Assembly (NCBI GenBank): GCA_002245135.1
Contig: NGBS01001161.1
Span: forward strand, 495,359 to 559,358
Reading direction: 5' to 3'
DNA length: 64,000 nt
From: Proteromonas lacertae
Lineage: Eukaryota; Sar; Bigyra; Opalinata; Proteromonadidae
Every line of letters starts with the position of its first letter. Within the stretch, counting starts at the first letter, position 1. The notes beneath the pieces were generated by a model. It saw only the letters and a list, made by a program, of their open reading frames with translations, made no database searches and was not told the DNA's origin. This document shows, one piece after another, positions 2-45,629 of the stretch. Made by a program: the position numbers and the translations under genes.

Positions 2-3000
2 GATCCAGTTGGTATAGAAGTATATAGAGAAGCAGGTGGAGCTTGGGGACTTCATAATTCATATACAACTCAACCAGTGATTAGATTATATGATGCTGGA
101 GGTAATACAGTAACAAGAGATGTAGATAATGTCACTGTTAATTGTAGTGATTTAAATGGCAATAGTGAAGAATTATATGGTGATTTATCAGCTATGTTTG
201 TTGATGGATTTGCTGAATTTACTAATTTATATATCTTCAAATTAGGAGATTTTATATTACACTTCACAGCCGTGTTAAATCCAAAATATCCACATAATAT
301 CAATATATATGCTAGTCAATCAATTCATGTAGGTGAAACTATTGAATATGAGTATTTACCATCAGATGGTGAAGAAGGAGATGACTATGGAAGGTCAATA
401 TCAATAACAAATGATACTTTGGTAGTTGGAGCTCCAAATAAAGATATACAGATTAAAGAAGTACAAATAGTTGAAACACATTGCCATACTGAACATTTAT
501 CAGGTGAAATCGTTTATATTAGAGGTTATACTGAACCAAAACATGCTGAAGATCAATTAGATTTTGAATTGAATGATAATAATGAAGATATATCCTATTT
601 AACAGGTGGTTATTATATGAAATTAGTATTAAAGAGTAACACTTATTATACGAGTTGTATTCCTGTTGATTTTAGAGCTGATCAATTGTATGTTGAAATG
701 TATAAAGCATTTTGTAAATATGATTCTGCTTATTGTGATTTTGAAGTAGTTTCACATCATTCTTCCAATACTATAATCAATAAATATAGTTATAATATAA
801 CCTATTATTCATTAATTGATTCAATATCAAAATTACAAGTTTATACAAATGATAGTTGTAATGTAACAGAAGCAACTCCATTATTTTCAAATAGAATAAG
901 TGGAGAAGAATTTGGAGGTAAATTCAAATTAATATTAGAAGGAAATGAAACTCCATTAATAGATGTAAATGATAATGAAGAAATGACAAAACAAATAATG
1001 AATTTAAATTGGAATTATACTGTTTTAAATGTTGAAAAACATGATATAGGAATAAGAAAAGAGAGATTATGGATGATCACATTTGATGCTGAATATTCTC
1101 ATTATGATGTTCCTACAATAACATATGAATCAATTAGTTTAAAAGGAAAGTATCCATTCTTAGATATAACAACAGTAAAAGAAGGTGAAGCACCAATTCA
1201 TGGAACTTTCAAATTGAAATTTAGAGGTGAAACAACAAAAGGAATTCAATTTAATGCTAAAGAATCTGAAGTTAAACAGAAGTTACAAGATTTACATGTA
1301 TTTGACACAGTTACAGTAGAGAGATTAGGTCCATATAACAAAGACAATTATCGATGGGTAATTACATTTGATAAAGTTGCTGATTGGAATATATTTGACA
1401 ATGTTCATCCAATAAAACAAGAGAATTTTGAACCGTTAGAAGTGATCGATGATGGTATACAAGGTACAAATGCTGAAGTTAAAGTGATTGCTGCATATCA
1501 ACAACCATCTAGAGCTCCATGGTTGACAGAAGTAATGGGTTCTCCAGGTAATGATTCTGGTGTAGTTTATATATATCATAAATATGGAATTGAATGGATA
1601 GAAACTCAGATTATTTCTGGACATGATACAACTGCTGAAGATCATTTCGGATATAGTGTAAGTAGTGAGAATGATATTATATTAGTTGGTGCTCCTGGTG
1701 CTGAAACGATTGGACAAATACGAATAGATGAAATAACCTGTAGAATGGAAGAAGAAGATATTTCTGATGAAACTTATTTTGTATTTAATAAAGATGGCAT
1801 TGTAACGAATGAATTATCACCAAATACTACAATTGATGAATTAGAAATAGAATTGAAAAGAATATTTGAAAAGATAGAAATATCACCATTTAGAGGTTCA
1901 ATGTGTTCCGAAAGTGGAAATACTTTTTATATTACTTTCTTATGGGATAGAGATCCACATAGAATGGATTATAATATAGAAATGCATAATTTAGAAGAAG
2001 AAAATGGTTATATTAATAAAACAACAATAAGTAAAAGAATCAGTCAAGCAACAGGTAATAATTCAACATATCATCAAACAGGTAAAGCGTATATATTCCA
2101 AAAGATAAATGATACTAATAATTGGATTGAAAAGTATGTTATTTATCCACCCAATGTCGTAGAAGGATCTGAGTTTGGCCATCAAGTTCAGCTTGACTTA
2201 GAACATAATACATTATACATCAGTGCACCAGCTGCAAATAATCACAAAGGATATATTTATATATATAAATATGATGATTTTATTAGTGATAATAATGATA
2301 GTAATGAAGATGATATGTATAACGAAGATGGAAGTTTAAAGAGTGTATTTAATTATCCACCAAAACTAATACAAACATTATCCTATGAAAGTGCTGATCC
2401 AAAAGATTTATATACACATTCATTTGAGATAGGATATTCATTTGAAAATGAAGTACAATTTCTATTTGTTGGTGCTATGAAACAAGGAAGTGTTTATATA
2501 TATACAAGAAAAAATGATAATGATATATTTAGATTTAATCAAGTGTTATATTCACCAATAAAAGATACTGAATTTGGCAGTAGTATAAAGTTTTATAATG
2601 ATACTTTATTGATTTCAGCTCCACATTATAATAATCGAAGAGGAATTGTTTATTATTTTGACTTAAATAAAATATCAAATACATTCTATTTAAAACAAAC
2701 TCTAATTCCATCTGATAATGAAGAGAATGATATGTTTGGTAGAACAATTGAAGTTAATGATAATGTATTAGCAATTACTAATAGCAGAGATGTACCAAGT
2801 ACAAAGAGGAATGCGACAAGAATTATATTTGAAGTTCAAACCTATCCTGAGGATAATAATACGAATATTACAGGTACATTTTATTTTGAAGGTGATGTTA
2901 GAAAAAGACAACCAAATCAATTATGTCATATTAATAATGATTTACCTTGTCATGAAAAGGATTATTTTATGGGTTGCAAAAGATGTAATAACAGCGAATG

Positions 3001-6000
3001 GGAATTTAAAACTACTTATAGATTGAGTTATAATGTATCAGCTTATGAAATGAGACTTGCTTTAGAAGAATTGACTAATTACAGTATGAAAGTAACAAGA
3101 GAAGGTACTTATTTTAATTCATACCGATGGTTAATTACTTTTGAAGCTAATAAATGTGATACACCTCGATTAATAGTCCATAATCTATTACATTCAGGTA
3201 ATATAAGATTGTCATTATTAAATTCTCCACCAGATCTTAGAAGAAGAACAACCTATTTATATATACGTGATAATAGTAACAATGATGATAGAAAATGGGT
3301 AGAAACAGCTTTATTAATGCCAACAGCTACACAATGTAATGATTATTATGGTTATACTTCAGCAATGTATGATAATGTGTTAGTAATAGGAAGTCCAAAT
3401 AGAGATACTGTTTATGGTGATACAAATAGTGGTGGAATATTCTATTATGTATTAAAATGGCTTGATTTAGGGTTTGAGAAGAAAGAATACAGTGTAACTG
3501 AAAGTGAAGGATTTATTAAATTGAATTTAATAAGATGTAGAAATGGAGAATGTTTATTCGGTGATGAAGAAGATGAAATTGATATAAGATATATAACAGG
3601 AGATGAATTATCACCAGCAGTAATTCCACACCATTTATTAGAAAGATCATTGATTAAACCAGGTACAGCCATATCACAATCAGATTGTTTATTGAAAAAT
3701 CAATTGGAACATGATTGTAAATGGTCTTATGGACAGTATATGTTGAATGGTTATAATGATTATGTTAATTTGAATGAAAGAGCTGTTTTTAAACCATACC
3801 AAATGAATTATACTGTTGAAATTGTTATTACTGATGATCGTGTTGTTGAAGTACCTGATGAATATTTCAATATTCGTTTAACTATGCCTGGAATGATTGC
3901 TAGTCCAGTTGGTCCAATGACAACTAAAATAACTATAACAGATGATAATGAAGATGGTTATGTTGATAAAGAAACTGGATTTATTAAGATAATATCTCCA
4001 GATGTTGATATATTGGATAAATTTGGTGAAGATGCAACTTTTTGTGATAATTATTTGTTTATTGGTTCTCCTCATAAGAATATGTATGCTGATAGGAATG
4101 TTGGTGCTGTTTATATGTATAAAAAAGATGAAAAAACAGGAAAATGGAATTTTGTTAGAATTATTTATGAACCAAATGGTATTTCTTATGGTAGAAACTT
4201 TGGTAATGGAGTAATAACTGATTGTAAATATTTAATAATCTCATCACCAGAAATAAGAAAGTTGTACATATACAGAATTGATAAGAATAATGATAATGTA
4301 ATTCATTATGATACTTTAGATTTAAGTAAAGATGTAATCTCACCAGAAGGATTTGGACATAGTCATACAATGCTAATTAGAGATGATAAATTATATTTAG
4401 GATTACCCTATATTAATGAAGTTAGAATATACCAACTAGCAAATTATAATGATGAAAATGAGGAGGAGGAAGAAGAAGAATCAACTCAAGCTGATGAAGA
4501 AATGACAGAAACAGATAATGATGGTGAAACAAAAGAAAATGAATTTTATAAAGATAATAATAATAATATCACATCAATCAAATTATTGCAGACACTAAGA
4601 CCATCTGAAATGGATGAAATTCCATATCCACCTATTGAAAAACATCAACCTAATTTCTTATTTGGTTATTCTATTGCTATTGCCAACAATACATTATTGG
4701 TTGGATCACCACAAGGAGGATTATATCGTCCAATGAAACCTTATTTATTTGAAACAGTAAAAGATGTAAATAATGAAAATGATGATGAAAATGATGATGA
4801 AGAAGAATATGATACTCCAACAACAGAAGAAGATGATTATACAACAGAAATGACAGAAAGTGAGGTAAATACAGAGAATGGTAATAAACCATCCAAAATC
4901 CCATCTAAAGGATTATATTATCATGATTATGATGGTATTATAATGGAAAGCACAGGTATGGTGTATATGTATTTATTCAATACAACAACTGAACAATGGA
5001 ATGAAGTAAATAGATTTACTCCAGAAGAAAAAGAACCAATGAGGTATGGTACAAGTGTAGCAATTGATTATAATTATTTCGTTGTTGGAGCACCAAGAGC
5101 TACTAATATGCCAAGTGTAACATGGGATTTTGAATCAGGAGATTTACAGTATATTTTTTTTTTGTGTTTATATCATTTATAGTGGATGGAGTTTAACAGG
5201 AGAAGCTTTTAATAATCAACCTACTTATGGTGATAATCCAAGATATAGATTACCGTATATCTATTTACTTATTTTTTATATATTGATTTTAGACCTACAA
5301 AATTCCGATTTAATGATTATACAATAAGTGGCCATTCTAATTTAGATGGTAGATATTACATTGGTACATATGAAGATCATCATGTAGTAATTAATATGAC
5401 AACTGGAGAAATAATTGAAGAGAAAACAAAGCAAGGATCAATTCAAGGTGATAAATTATTAGGAACAATGACATCTCCAACATTTATAATTGAAGGAAAT
5501 ACAATTCAATTTAAATTGGGTGGTGGTTGTGATATAAAAACAATGTATCTATATTTATTGTTATTATCTTTTTTTAATAGATATGTTGAATTAATAGTAG
5601 AAGGAATGTCTGTATATAGTAATACAGGAAAATGTAAAGAAGAAATGGAAGTAGTCACATGGAATGTTACACAATATAAGAAGAAAGGAGCAATCATAAG
5701 AATAGTAGATAATTCAAACTCCTATTGGGGACATATCAATGTAGATTCATTCACATTTGATTGGCCAATTGAAGGAAAATCTAGCAGTTTTACATCATTC
5801 TATCAAAGAAGTCCAGTTGTAGAAGGTGGAAAGGCATATTTATATAAACATGAGTTAATATTAGAAGAAAAGCATGCAGAATTCCGATATTATTGTAATG
5901 ATTATGGTGATGCTAATTGTACTTGGGTTTTAGAGAATGAATTAATACCAAGTGATAGACATTCTTATCAGTTGTTTGGTGAATATGTAGCAATTGATTA

Positions 6001-25817: not shown

Positions 25818-27495
25818 TTACTTTACAACCGTTGTAGTTATTTCTACATGTCCCTCTTCTTTTCCTGATTGAAATTCGGCAGAAAACCTATTCATTATAG
25901 TTTTTTATTGGATACATGAATCTTGCTTCCATTTTCAACCAACACTCAATAGGATTCTCTAAATTTACAATGCTATAACTTAATCCAGTAGTCATATAAA
26001 CATAAGGACCTTTAAATTCAAGAACTTCACTCTATAAATTGAAATTAGCAACAATTATAATAATACCGATTGAGGTTTTGAACTTGTAATAGTATATTGT
26101 AATGGTACTTGTGTAGCTCCACTTACACTCAAAAACATCTATTAAAAAATAAAATAAAGAAATATAAAAATGATATACAAAATTACTTTTATTTGTTAAA
26201 TGATATATAGGAATCATCATATCTTCACCACATTGTGTTCGATATCTATTAATAAATAATAATAATATATACGTTCTAGATAATATATGTCTAGCAAACA
26301 TCACCATTTCAATAGGATCAACATGTGTATTACAACTCTGTATTAATGAAGTTACTAAATTAGCAATCATTATATGAACAATTTCAAAATTAGCCATATC
26401 CATATCTCGTTGGTATTTTATTCCATTTATTTCAATACAATCTCTTTCTAAGTCTTTAAATAGTTGATCATCTTCAAATTCTTGGGAAGATGGATCTGAT
26501 TTACTCTATTAATAATGTATATTATTTTACATTTTAATACATCGTATATCCATGATAAAGGCAAAACTAGTTTATGTGGAATCGTATGAATTATATCTAA
26601 ATATTGTTGTAATGTCAAATTATCATCTTTCAATTTTGCTCTTATATTTTCAACAAATTGAACATCACTATAATGTTTTTTATACAATTATTATTATTAT
26701 TATACTTTCTATATTTCAATTCTACTTTCTTTGTACTTCTATTTATTGCATCAATCCATCTACGCCTTTCTTCTTGAGATGAAGCATTAAATATTATATC
26801 AGTTACTGGTTCAGCTGTTACTTCATCGTTTAATATACAATGGAAAAAGAACTTCGTTGTGCTTGTAGAAAAAAGTTCAGATCTACATTCAAAATTGGTT
26901 GTTAAAGGTATATATTGATTATCCATTAATTCTAATAGATCTTCAGGTTTTGAAAAGAACCAAGATAAGAATCCAGGTCGAACTACTACATATCGTTTTG
27001 ATAATTTGTTTGATTTTGACATTTTGTCTAACCATCCTACTTTCACTATTTCATTGCCTTTAGTTAATCCTATTGGCTGAATTATTTGGCCTATATGTGT
27101 TGAATCGCTGACTATCGATGAATAAATTTGAATTAAATGAAATACTTATTGGTCTTACTATTGTGTATTGTTCTGGGTGATAATTTCCAGCTAGTTCAAA
27201 AGCTGCTACAATAAATTGATCTCTTTTCCTTTCACAATCTTCTTTTCGTTTCTTTAAACGCTAGGATTATTAAAATAGTAAAAAATGATATACATCAACT
27301 TCAGCTTGTTTTTTAAATCTATGAGGACTTCGATAGAATGTATATTTATCATATATCTAATAAATAGTTTGAACTAAATACATTTTGAATAGCTAACTGA
27401 TGTAATTCTATTTCAGCTTGTAAATTTTCTTCTACAGTTTTTAATTCAGCAGAGTAATTCCCTGTTATACTTTGCCTTAATCCTGTAGGAATCAT
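25818..27495 (-). CDS. PH-domain protein
   Basis: Ten exons give exactly 460 residues: 27382-27495, 27294-27356, 27146-27260, 26706-27111, 26541-26667, 26273-26505, 26179-26245, 26067-26138, 25916-26031, 25818-25887. The N-terminal about 100 residues are charged and helical (ELKTVEENLQAEIELHQ, LKKRKEDCERKRDQFIVA), possibly a coiled coil. A PH domain follows (VKVGWLDKMSKSNKLSKRYVVV to SQEERRRWIDAINRS, with the closing helix tryptophan). The C-terminal half is unassigned (ARHILSRTYRTQCGEDMM; VSGATQVPLQYTITSS). PH domains usually bind phosphoinositides or small GTPases, so a peripheral membrane role is inferred. Its start lies 80 bp from the divergent TyrRS gene. Confidence 0.82.
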
Positions 27496-31012: not shown

Positions 31013-31763
31013 TATAATTATATAATATATATATAGTATTGATGTAATTTTACGACATGAGATAGTAGATAAAGTAAAAGCAGGTAATGGTTGTATATTT
31101 ACAGGCACATTGATAGTCATACCAGATATAGCACAATTATATCGACCAGGTGAAGTTAAAGTAGGTGCAATTCGAAATAACAATAGAACTGAAGGTGGTG
31201 AAGGAGTTTCAGGTTTAAAAGCTTTAGGAGTAAGAGATTTGACTTATAAATTAGCATTTCTAGCCAATGGTATTCAATCAGTAAGTGATAAATTTGCAGG
31301 TAATGCATTCGTAATGGATGATTCAGAAAATACATTTACAGAGGAAGAAAGATCAGAGATATTAAGAATCAGACATGAACAGAATTTATATCAAAAAATA
31401 GTCCGATCTTTAGCTCCAAATATATTTGGTCATTCTGATATAAAGAGAGGTATATTGTTAATGTTATGTGGTGGAGTTCATAAGAAATCAACATCAGGCC
31501 AACAACTGAGAGGTGATTTAAATATCTGCATAGTTGGTGATCCAGCTACAGCAAAGAGTCAATTCTTGAAATATATTTGTAATTTTATGCCAAGAGCTGT
31601 TTATACTAGTGGTAAATCTAGTAGTGCTGCTGGTTTAACTGCTTCTGTAGTAATGGATCAAGATACTGGTGAATTAGGTATAGAAGCTGGTGCTTTAATG
31701 TTGGCTGATAATGGTATATGTTGTATTGATGAATTTGATAAGATGAATATTGTAGATCAAGTA

Positions 31764-31801
<38 letters not shown>

Positions 31802-32738
31802 ATCAAAGGCAGGTATTCAAGCAACTTTAAATGCAAGAGCTTCAATATTAGCAGCAGCTAATCCAGTATTTGGAAGATATGATAAAAGTAGAACATTGAG
31901 ACAAAATATTAATATGACAGCTCCAATTATGTCTAGATTTGATTTATTCTTTGTTATTGCTGATGAAAATAATGAAACTACTGATACTCGTGTTGCTGAA
32001 CATATATTAAAGATGCATCAAGAATATGAACAAGTTGATTCTGGTATAGTTAGTAATGCAGATTTTTCAATGGAACAATTACAAAAATATATTAGTTTCG
32101 CTAGAACATTTAATCCAATCATCACACAGGAAGCTAAATTGAAATTATGTGAAAATTATAAGAAATTAAGAAGAAATGATAATACTCCAAACTCACAGCA
32201 ATCATATCGAATTACAATTAGGCAATTAGAATCATTAATTCGTCTATCAGAAGCCTTAGCTAGAGTTCATTTAGATGATGAAGTTAAACCAGTATATGTA
32301 GATGAAGCATTTAGATTATTACAGCAATCAGTAATAAGAGTAGAAACTAAAGATATTGTATTAGGTTATGAAGATGAACAACAACAACAACAACAACAAC
32401 AACAGAATGATTTAACAATGGAAGAAGAAGGAGGAGAAGAATCAAAGAAAAAAGAAAGTATAATGATCAGTGTAGAAGAATATATTAAAATATCTCACCA
32501 ATTGTGCTCTATGGTTAATGATTTAGCTACTGTTGTTTGGAAAGATTTAGCAAAAATGTATGTTGAACAAAATCTACAAGGTTGTGAAGACATTGTTTCT
32601 GAAGTGAAAAAGATTAATTTGGTGATTAAAAGATTGAATAGTCAAGAAAAAGTGTTACTATTTGCTGATGAGGATGATAAATCTGATGATGAAAATAGAA
32701 TTCTTACACTTAATCCTAATTACGTTATAGGAGATTAA
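30176..32738 (+). CDS. MCM6: MCM6 replicative helicase subunit
   Basis: Five exons (30176-30258, 30287-30347, 30387-30499, 30531-30977, 31037-32738), 801 residues. The N-terminal domain has the zinc-binding pattern CGSC ... CPNPTC and the MCM6 hallmark VEQQFKYT-like IEQQFKYTQPT, then FVDWQKVRVQE. The AAA+ core has Walker A GDPATAKSQ, Walker B CCIDEFDKM and arginine finger MSRFDLFF. A polyglutamine run (32380-32403) separates the core from a C-terminal winged-helix segment. Part of the MCM2-7 helicase that unwinds origins. Intron 4 (30978-31036, 59 nt) is nearly a pure TA repeat. Identity is certain. Confidence 0.97.
30978..31036 (+). repeat. (TA)n microsatellite filling MCM6 intron 4
   Basis: A 59-nt GT-AG intron consisting almost only of TA dinucleotides, longer than the other MCM6 introns (28-39 nt). 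Splicing here restores PRSIDVILRHE, so the intron call is firm. Confidence 0.9.
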
Positions 32739-32797: not shown

Positions 32798-33905
32798 TTA
32801 CAATGCTGATCCAAGTTCTAATGTCTTTGTAAATTCATCTTCTGTGAAATTCAACAGTTTTGCTGCTTCGATATGCAGTTTTTGTCTTTTCAATACATCA
32901 ATTAATTTCATTTGTTTTTTAAATGCATTTAATAATTCAGCTTTCTGTCTTTCTATCCTTCTAATATCATTCTCTAGTGATTCCACTCGTTTTCTTGATT
33001 CTTCTTTAAATATAATATACTCATCTTTTTGATTCTTCAATTGAGATCGATATTTATCAACTTCCTCAACAGCTCTACTCAATTTATTCTCTCTGTTATT
33101 ATTATTGGTTTGTATATCTTTTGCTTCTTGAGATACTTGTTCCATTGTCTTTGATATTGTATCTACTTTCTTTTCTAAAGTCTGAACTGTTTTTGTTAAT
33201 TTTGCATTCTCTGATTTGTACTTTTCTAAATCATCAGTTAGTTTTTTGATTGTCTTTTCTGTTTCTTTCTTTTCTGCTTTGTTTTTATTTATTTCTTCGT
33301 TTAATTTATTCTGTGTTGTTTCTTGAGTTTTATTTCTTTCTGTTGCTTTCTTTAATTCGTAAATAATAATTAATAAAATCTATTTAATATCATTAAAATA
33401 AAATAAAAAGGATATTTCTTGTAAAACTCTTATTTTTGCTTTTAACATTCTGATTGTTGCATCAGCACCTAAATTATCAGTATCTACTACCTCTAAATCG
33501 CCAATTGATGGAGGCGGAGTTTCAACAGCAGATGATCTTCCACTATTGGGTGGTTTTATTTGAGATACTCTTTTCTGTGAAGCATTACTGGCTCTTTGCT
33601 TTTGTAAAGATTGTCTTCTTTTCCCAACTGATTTCTGTTCAGGAGCTATACTTATTAAATAATTCTATTCTTACTTAAAGGATTAGTTTCTAGAATGTCT
33701 CTGAATTCTCTTAAACTAAGTCTATCTGGGGGATCATTAGATGAATCTGTATTCATAACGCCTTGTAACTAACAATATAGAGTATAATTTGTACTTGTCT
33801 CTGTAATTGTTCTCTTTGACTATCCAAATCTTCATTTAATTTACGAAGTCTTGCCTATTAATAGTATAATTATTTAAATACCTCTCTTTCTAACTCTGAA
33901 GCCAT
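32798..33905 (-). CDS. TEX9-like coiled-coil protein with a probable AT-AC intron
   Basis: Five exons (33882-33905, 33795-33854, 33675-33768, 33416-33645, 32798-33358) sum to 322 codons plus stop. The protein is charged and coiled-coil over most of its length after a basic Ser/Gln-rich N-terminal third (KSVGKRRQSLQKQ). The C-terminus (AFKKQMKLIDVLKRQKLHIE ... LNFTEDEFTKTLELG) closely matches the conserved end of testis-expressed protein 9, and LGADATIRMLKAKIRVLQEE matches an internal conserved block. TEX9 relatives occur in flagellated eukaryotes, so a basal-body or centriolar-satellite role is likely. Intron 33359-33415 starts ATATCCTTTT and ends AC, the U12-type pattern; removing it restores the QEEL block and the frame. 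Confidence 0.88.
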
Positions 33906-45547: not shown

Positions 45548-45629
45548 TGCATTGAGTGGGGTTTGAACCCACGAGTGCGAACACATCACGACCTTAACGT
45601 GACCCCTTGGACCGCTCGGGCATCAATGC
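45548..45629 (-). tRNA. tRNA-Leu (anticodon AAG)
   Basis: The sense strand is minus. The acceptor stem GCATTGA pairs fully with TCAATGC. The D-arm/A box reads TGCCCGAGCGG. The anticodon stem TCACG/CGTGA closes the loop TTAAGGT, so positions 34-36 are AAG (Leu, CUU/CUC). A long variable arm (GTG-TTCG-CAC) marks a class II tRNA. The T arm is GTGGG-TTCAAAC-CCCAC with B box GGTTCAAACCC. The discriminator is A, as for leucine tRNAs. No intron. Confidence 0.97.

Follow-up and report, generated by a model that had tools for sequence, protein, structure and literature searches.

The 57-nt segment at 33359-33415 (minus strand) of the window, a 64,000-nt stretch of Proteromonas lacertae DNA, is very probably an A-type U12 (minor) intron of a TEX9 gene, excised by a minor spliceosome retained, in modified form, in this lineage. 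This assignment draws on the gene model, the snRNA genes, two proteins specific to the minor spliceosome and similar introns in conserved genes; from these sequences we infer that the snRNAs are made and that the TEX9 intron is spliced in the minor-type manner. Taken alone, the intron is unremarkable for a class already described; it is the system around it that looks like a variant.

The segment (ATATCCTTTTTATTTTATTTTAATGATATTAAATAGATTTTATTAATTATTATTTAC, minus strand 33415..33359) started with ATATCCTTTT and ended with TTTAC, the boundaries that the first-pass annotation had proposed (Table 1). When it was retained, an in-frame TAG interrupted the TEX9 reading frame; when it was excised, KIRVLQE was joined to ELKKATER and the five exons summed to 969 nt including the stop codon, in agreement with the earlier count. 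The annotation had described every other intron as GTAT...AG, which was wrong for this gene: the remaining three start with GTAT, GTAC and GTAA, one each. The convergent neighbour of TEX9, with about 60 bp between the two, is an MCM6-like gene whose C-terminal exon occupies 31026-32738 (+); among the 120 listed of its 7991 relatives the closest shared 85% identity and the rest 46-61%. The window also contains a tRNA-Leu (AAG) at 45548-45629 (-).

Table 1. Coordinates of the TEX9 gene features in the window and of the U6atac gene in the assembly.
Feature	Position	Strand	Evidence
U12-type AT-AC intron of TEX9, 57 nt, phase 0	33359..33415	-	donor/acceptor, frame, homology, donor scan
TEX9 5' splice site ATATCCTTTT, +1 to +10 = complete U12 AT-type consensus	33406..33415	-	
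Best branch-site candidate of the TEX9 intron, TTTTATTAAT	33369..33378	-	
TEX9 intron 3' splice site, TTTAC	33359..33363	-	
TEX9 exon 1, carries ATG, 24 nt	33882..33905	-	
TEX9 exon 2, 60 nt	33795..33854	-	
TEX9 exon 3, 94 nt	33675..33768	-	
TEX9 exon 4, 230 nt, C-terminal end ...KIRVLQE	33416..33645	-	
TEX9 exon 5, 561 nt, ELKKATER... through stop	32798..33358	-	
Ordinary GT-AG intron, 29 nt	33646..33674	-	TEX9 gene model
Ordinary GT-AG intron, 26 nt	33769..33794	-	TEX9 gene model
Ordinary GT-AG intron, 27 nt	33855..33881	-	TEX9 gene model
U6atac gene, GCC at positions 12-14	L002:1501-1615 (G000 C1066:116605-116719)		Rfam match

TEX9 is a cilium-related gene. At E 0.001 or better the predicted protein matched 188 homologues, and where these were named it was often as testis-expressed protein 9; they were near full-length with an identity of about 29-36% and a strongly conserved C-terminal block. 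The block FKKQxKLIDVLKRQKxHIEAAK was present in the alignment, here as RQKLHIEAAKLLNFTEDEF. Searches with exon 5 and with the whole protein returned no Pfam family. When 19 homologues taken from the 120 listed of the 188 were aligned, none had an insertion at the join (a slash in what follows), where the majority sequence was VLQEEL, showing that excision restores a conserved block (VLQE/ELKK) without a gap, as the annotation had anticipated. A script listed 73 frame-keeping combinations of GT/GC/AT donors and AG/AC acceptors near the site, and VLQEELKK was obtained from the 57-nt AT-AC choice alone. One of the other choices, a 48-nt GT-AG (U2-type) intron GTTTTACAA...TTAAATAG, leaves the frame intact and also excises the in-frame TAG, and the three remaining TEX9 introns are all GT-AG. 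This choice had been noted for adding ILLIIIY, and it indeed exists in frame; however, it also deletes VLQE and gives KIR/ILLIIIYELKK in a block that is gapless in 19 of 19 aligned homologues, and it leaves the exact ATATCCTTTT plus AC without explanation. GT-AG splicing of the segment is therefore very improbable and was rejected, as its product disagrees with the homologues.

The 9-mer ATATCCTTT, the U12-type donor requirement, was present at the TEX9 5' splice site. Across both strands the window holds 8 copies of it (2 + 6), compared with an average of 2.0 for 60 first-order Markov sequences, so that by itself it is weak proof for the intron; the weight lies with donor, acceptor and frame jointly, inside the conserved block. 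U12-type introns are expected to carry a branch site resembling TTCCTTAAY some 10-15 nt ahead of the 3' end. A branch candidate was found near the 3' end as the annotation had stated, but its distance was 11 nt, counted from the second A of TTTTATTAAT, and not about 14 nt. This candidate was identical to TTTCCTTAAT at 8 of 10 positions, with T and A replacing the two Cs, and its computed pairing with U12 was weak (-1.8 kcal/mol, versus -5.0 and -7.7 for commoner forms).

Minor-spliceosome components were searched in the whole assembly (50.2 Mb, 1181 contigs), using Rfam for snRNAs and Pfam for proteins. Three copies of U11 (61.7-63.4 bits; cut-off 39), one U12 (56.9 bits; cut-off 53) and one U6atac gene (81.5 bits; cut-off 33) were recovered. 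No match above the Rfam cut-off was observed in 14 control genomes, where at E 1 a weak U6atac appeared in eight and a weak U11 in one. U4atac gave no Rfam match at E 1 (best 48 of 1767 candidates scored), and two U6atac-pairing patterns returned only U6atac itself or nothing; the gene may be diverged or may lie in an assembly gap. Among the proteins, PDCD7/U11-59K (54 bits, G000 C1089:142219-143085) and CENATAC (40.5 and 30.9 bits, in two pieces separated by 1 kb) scored above their Pfam cut-offs. The PDCD7 match contains one TAA, perhaps an intron. According to PMC8280824, AT-AN minor introns in human cells need CENATAC. The first-pass annotation had predicted a working minor spliceosome, suggested a search for its four snRNAs and specific proteins, and named the absence of all components as evidence against the intron. 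Three of the four snRNAs and both proteins were found, together with like introns in conserved genes, which supports the prediction.

The snRNA loci shared upstream elements. U6atac and U6 (98.3 bits) had both the 15-nt upstream element CTAACCCATAAATTT and TATATATAGAAA in common, and CCCATAAA was located 51, 53, 56 and 58 nt upstream of U12, U11, U6atac and U6, respectively; these four genes lie in loci L001, L002 (U6atac), L003 and L027. The U6atac gene ends in a terminator T-run. Because of these common elements, U11, U12, U6atac and U6 look like real genes; CCCATAAA is likely a common snRNA promoter element and could help in finding U4atac.

Introns of the same class were sought with three genome patterns. 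The strict pattern (RTATCCTT, CCTTRAY, A[C/G]) gave 48 matches versus 43 in the reversed control, the donor-agnostic pattern TTTCCTTAAYN{5,10}YAC (branch plus acceptor) 50 versus 342, and a wider pattern 94 versus 119. Raw counts were thus no better than the control, and the case for enrichment comes from base composition, frames and homology. Individual matches were convincing. Three joins, each produced by excising an AT-AC or AT-AA segment, were supported by PDB alignments: the protease join NKNILGNNFMRGHDVIFDLDKRRIGFVEAN/CN was gapless against plasmepsin V (a plasmepsin-V-like C-terminus), the LSm2 join LLED/AARKEE was gapless against LLQDAARKEA, and the join PIKIV/AESHYTRAW was gapless against branched-chain aminotransferase (BCAT), with a single-residue gap shortly ahead of the join. 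The BCAT locus had entered the sample through the U6atac pattern, its match turning out to be U6, and was not picked for introns. Pfam matches spanned the join in a kinase, the aminotransferase (BCAT), a BTB protein, a copine and a second join of an aspartic protease. Two of the six joined stretches of the first set matched no Pfam family, and both were matched in the PDB (LSm2 and plasmepsin-V-like); in the second set the joined stretch of L067 had no Pfam family (1 of 3). An above-cut-off RNase III match stopped two residues short of its join. The copine intron started with ATATCTTTTT (T at +6) and the aminotransferase intron with ATATCATTTT (A at +6). Four candidate minor introns, each 50-68 nt long, were clustered in about 2.4 kb of locus L067 (G000 C1119:296000-302000) and perhaps belong to one gene. 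An identical ATATCCTTTTTTGCATTT...CCTTAATAAATGAAC segment was present at five places (G000 C302, C352, C751, C809 and C857), representing either a repeat family with a minor-intron-like sequence or duplicated assembly.

From the 50 donor-agnostic matches, 34 loci were examined after 16 were dropped by eye (repeats of included sequences and nested ends); L086 (ATATCA, score 2.4) was excluded as too weak. An ATATC donor with coding sequence on both sides was observed at 8 of the 34 loci, with T at +6 in four, A in two and C in two. Scores above 11 were also reached by L083, L085, L099, L102, L105 and L107, which lack an ATATC donor; by eye their coding was continuous or one-sided, and they were judged not to be introns. 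For the wider pattern, 67 of the 94 matches were kept after duplicates and nested ends were removed by eye. Their first base was A in 66 and G in one, where 72% A was expected from composition (p 2e-8). Position +6 was T in 36, A in 16, C in 13 and G in 2, and +10 was T in 55. The ends were AC in 43 and AG in 24, the only two that the pattern permitted. When the seven flanked AG-ended loci were inspected, the frame in L066, L077 and L078 fitted only with the end one base earlier (AA/G), TA, AT or a later AC fitted L075 where AG did not, and no join of coding sequence was seen at L068, L069 or L076.

An exon-joining scan, leaving out introns that the genome patterns would pick, was run on 255.5 kb of non-redundant DNA. 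A hit had to combine, in frame, a donor with a TTTC[C/T]TTAAT-like site and a terminal AC or AA. Codon scoring was based on 84 long ORFs drawn from this DNA; thresholds were set by us, and decoys were run at identical settings. ATATC gave 12 introns, TEX9 included, compared with a total of 10 for its 15 one-base neighbours (0 to 3 each). In a companion run, the eleven decoy donors tried yielded 0-3 hits apiece and 13 in total, versus 12 kept of 14 for ATATC; the two overlapping hits removed, at 26128-26206 of the window with an AG end, are likely an ordinary GT-AG intron. When AG ends were admitted, ATATC gave 14 (two doubtful) and the neighbours also 14 in total, with 5 for ATATA and 4 for ATATT. 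In the scan restricted to AC and AA ends, no hit had a base other than T at +7 or +8, and +6 was T in five, A in four, C in three and G in none. Donor positions 1-5 and 7-8 thus look fixed and +6 free, while to our knowledge +6 is nearly always C in the minor introns of other lineages. GTATC gave no hits with any end, which is weak given its few candidates (47, versus 257 for ATATC); the case against GT-type minor introns, at most rare here, comes mainly from the 66 A to 1 G matches. The branch CC was often CT (TTTCTTTAAT) across the minor introns of this genome, whose form is TTTC[T/C]TTAAT.

The 12 unselected introns ended in AA (7), AC (4) and AG (1, where AA also fits). Exact ends were fixed by homology in LSm2 (AA), the aminotransferase (AA, less firmly) and the protease (AC); the AA share is soft, as a three-base shift is possible elsewhere and AA is common in AT-rich DNA. 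Four introns, the TEX9 intron being one of them, in 147 kb not chosen for introns extrapolate to about 1400 per genome (95% limits 370-3500), and 12 in 255.5 kb to about 2400 (1200-4100). The larger sample partly flanks genes picked for minor introns and the assembly looks partly duplicated, so that we state the number as hundreds to a few thousand. Counts of GT..AG introns were not above decoys, and a major-intron number, and with it the fraction of minor introns, was not derivable from them.

These data also bear on whether the AT-AC ends are real and the major spliceosome removes the TEX9 intron. Such U2-dependent AT-AC introns are documented in human cells (85 are mentioned in PMC8280824), and the weak TEX9 branch site would suit one. 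The donor, however, matches U11 across +4 to +10, the genome holds U11, U12, U6atac, PDCD7 and CENATAC, and the intron belongs to a class with a common TTTC[T/C]TTAAT-like site 8-16 nt from the end (the scans were built so) that decoy donors yielded far less often, which makes this reading most unlikely. A pseudogene or an assembly error, conceivable for a single locus, is hardly credible given the intact other exons and conserved C-terminus of TEX9, the coding score of 38.6 across the join (the highest of the exon-joining scan) and the same class of intron in further genes.

The system departs from the textbook at donor position +6, at the AA acceptor and in U6atac, features that lay beyond the view of the first-pass annotation. 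U6atac carried AUGAGCCGAGAGAAGG where the Rfam consensus is AUGAAAGGAGAGAAGG, with GCC instead of AAG at positions 12-14. A search for the U6atac core that allowed up to 2 mismatches returned 28 places, this gene being the only exact match; 20 of the 28 loci were put through cmscan, which reported only U6; the change is known from one gene copy in one assembly. In the mammalian pairing model, derived from suppressor experiments, U6atac G15 pairs to +5, G14 to +6, A13 to +7 and A12 to +8. The only copy found kept G at 15 and had C at 14, where the model requires G at both. With the GCC form, good pairing would be left at +4 and +5 only. The donor-pairing stretch of U11, AAAAAGGG, was unchanged and requires T from +7 onward, which would explain why these positions stay T; the excess of T relative to A at +6 is consistent with G-U wobble pairing to U11. 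G was the rarest +6 base in the 67 matches, and the best-pairing donor ATATCGGC was excluded by the pattern, which demanded T at +7 to +9. Computed folds of the donor duplexes included alternative registers with similar energy, so that the pairing picture is a model and not a result.

It is possible, though we think it the less probable account, that the U6atac found is a decayed copy whose canonical counterpart is absent from the assembly, and that +6 drifted through AT-richness and tolerance of U/A by U11. The single copy in an assembly of 1181 contigs, a +6 composition near background except for few G, and the ability of T at +6 to wobble with U11 are consistent with this, and PMC2846911 cites a personal communication according to which T may replace one of the two Cs in minor introns. 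Against decay, the gene has U6-type promoter elements and a terminator T-run, its remainder is conserved (81.5 bits), and a fixed C at +5 beside a free +6 is the prediction from losing base 14 but keeping 15.

In the favoured account, U11 AAAAAGGG would base-pair with CCUUUU of the TEX9 donor and U12 with the TTTTATTAAT branch region; the donor would then be handed over to U6atac, and the AC after the branch A would serve as 3' splice site. Minor introns of this genome start with ATATC[T/A/C]TTTT, carry the branch TTTC[T/C]TTAAT and end in AC or AA. A U6atac without the consensus bases 12-14 would hold the donor mainly via +4/+5, and U11 would keep +7 onward as T, thereby freeing +6. Whether the minor spliceosome of this lineage serves almost exclusively A-type introns (around a thousand, split similarly between AT-AC and AT-AA), with U6atac 12-14 rewritten, +6 free, and +5 and +7 onward fixed, we regard as evenly balanced.

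Minor introns, AT-AC and AT-AA ends and CENATAC are already known. Canonical U12-type AT-AC introns of animals and plants share with those described here the ATATCC donor, a TTAAY branch near the end, the AC acceptor and U11/U12/U6atac; the differences are T, A or C at +6 and a branch CC that is often CT. Blastocystis is likewise a protist with short, mostly AT-AC minor introns, as described in PMC5608401 and PMC10639083 (196 of 253 in subtype 1, PMC10639083). According to these descriptions it has a non-AT-AC fraction and all four snRNAs, whereas here GT-type introns are at most rare and U4atac was not found; AA ends look common here, unlike in Blastocystis. Physarum polycephalum is also a protist rich in minor introns, for which the title of Larue 2021 announces expansion and transformation (PMC10639083, PMC8329584). 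It is credited with more than 20,000 minor introns, compared with our rough estimate of hundreds to a few thousand, and many of its minor introns are GT-AG (PMC2846911). AT-AA is given in PMC10639083 as the commonest non-canonical minor type in animals and plants, where all non-canonical ends make up about 4% of conserved minor introns, compared with AA in 7 of 12 unselected introns here by a soft assignment. In the literature searched there was no case of an unconstrained +6, of a set of minor introns almost all A-type and often ending in AA, or of the U6atac 12-14 change, though Larue 2021 may report related changes in Physarum.

P. lacertae, for which the protein set searched held no close named relative, adds one more lineage to those keeping a minor spliceosome, one in which a splicing signal and an snRNA would have shifted together. 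Classifiers that demand C at +6 or GT-AG/AT-AC ends would miss many such introns, and surveys may have undercounted minor introns in other protists. A nearly all-A-type complement together with CENATAC bears on why AT-AN introns need this protein. If the proposed account is true, the donor positions read by U11 are naturally separated from those read by U6atac, and a free +6 next to a fixed +5 would be a direct natural test of the U6atac-donor pairing model.
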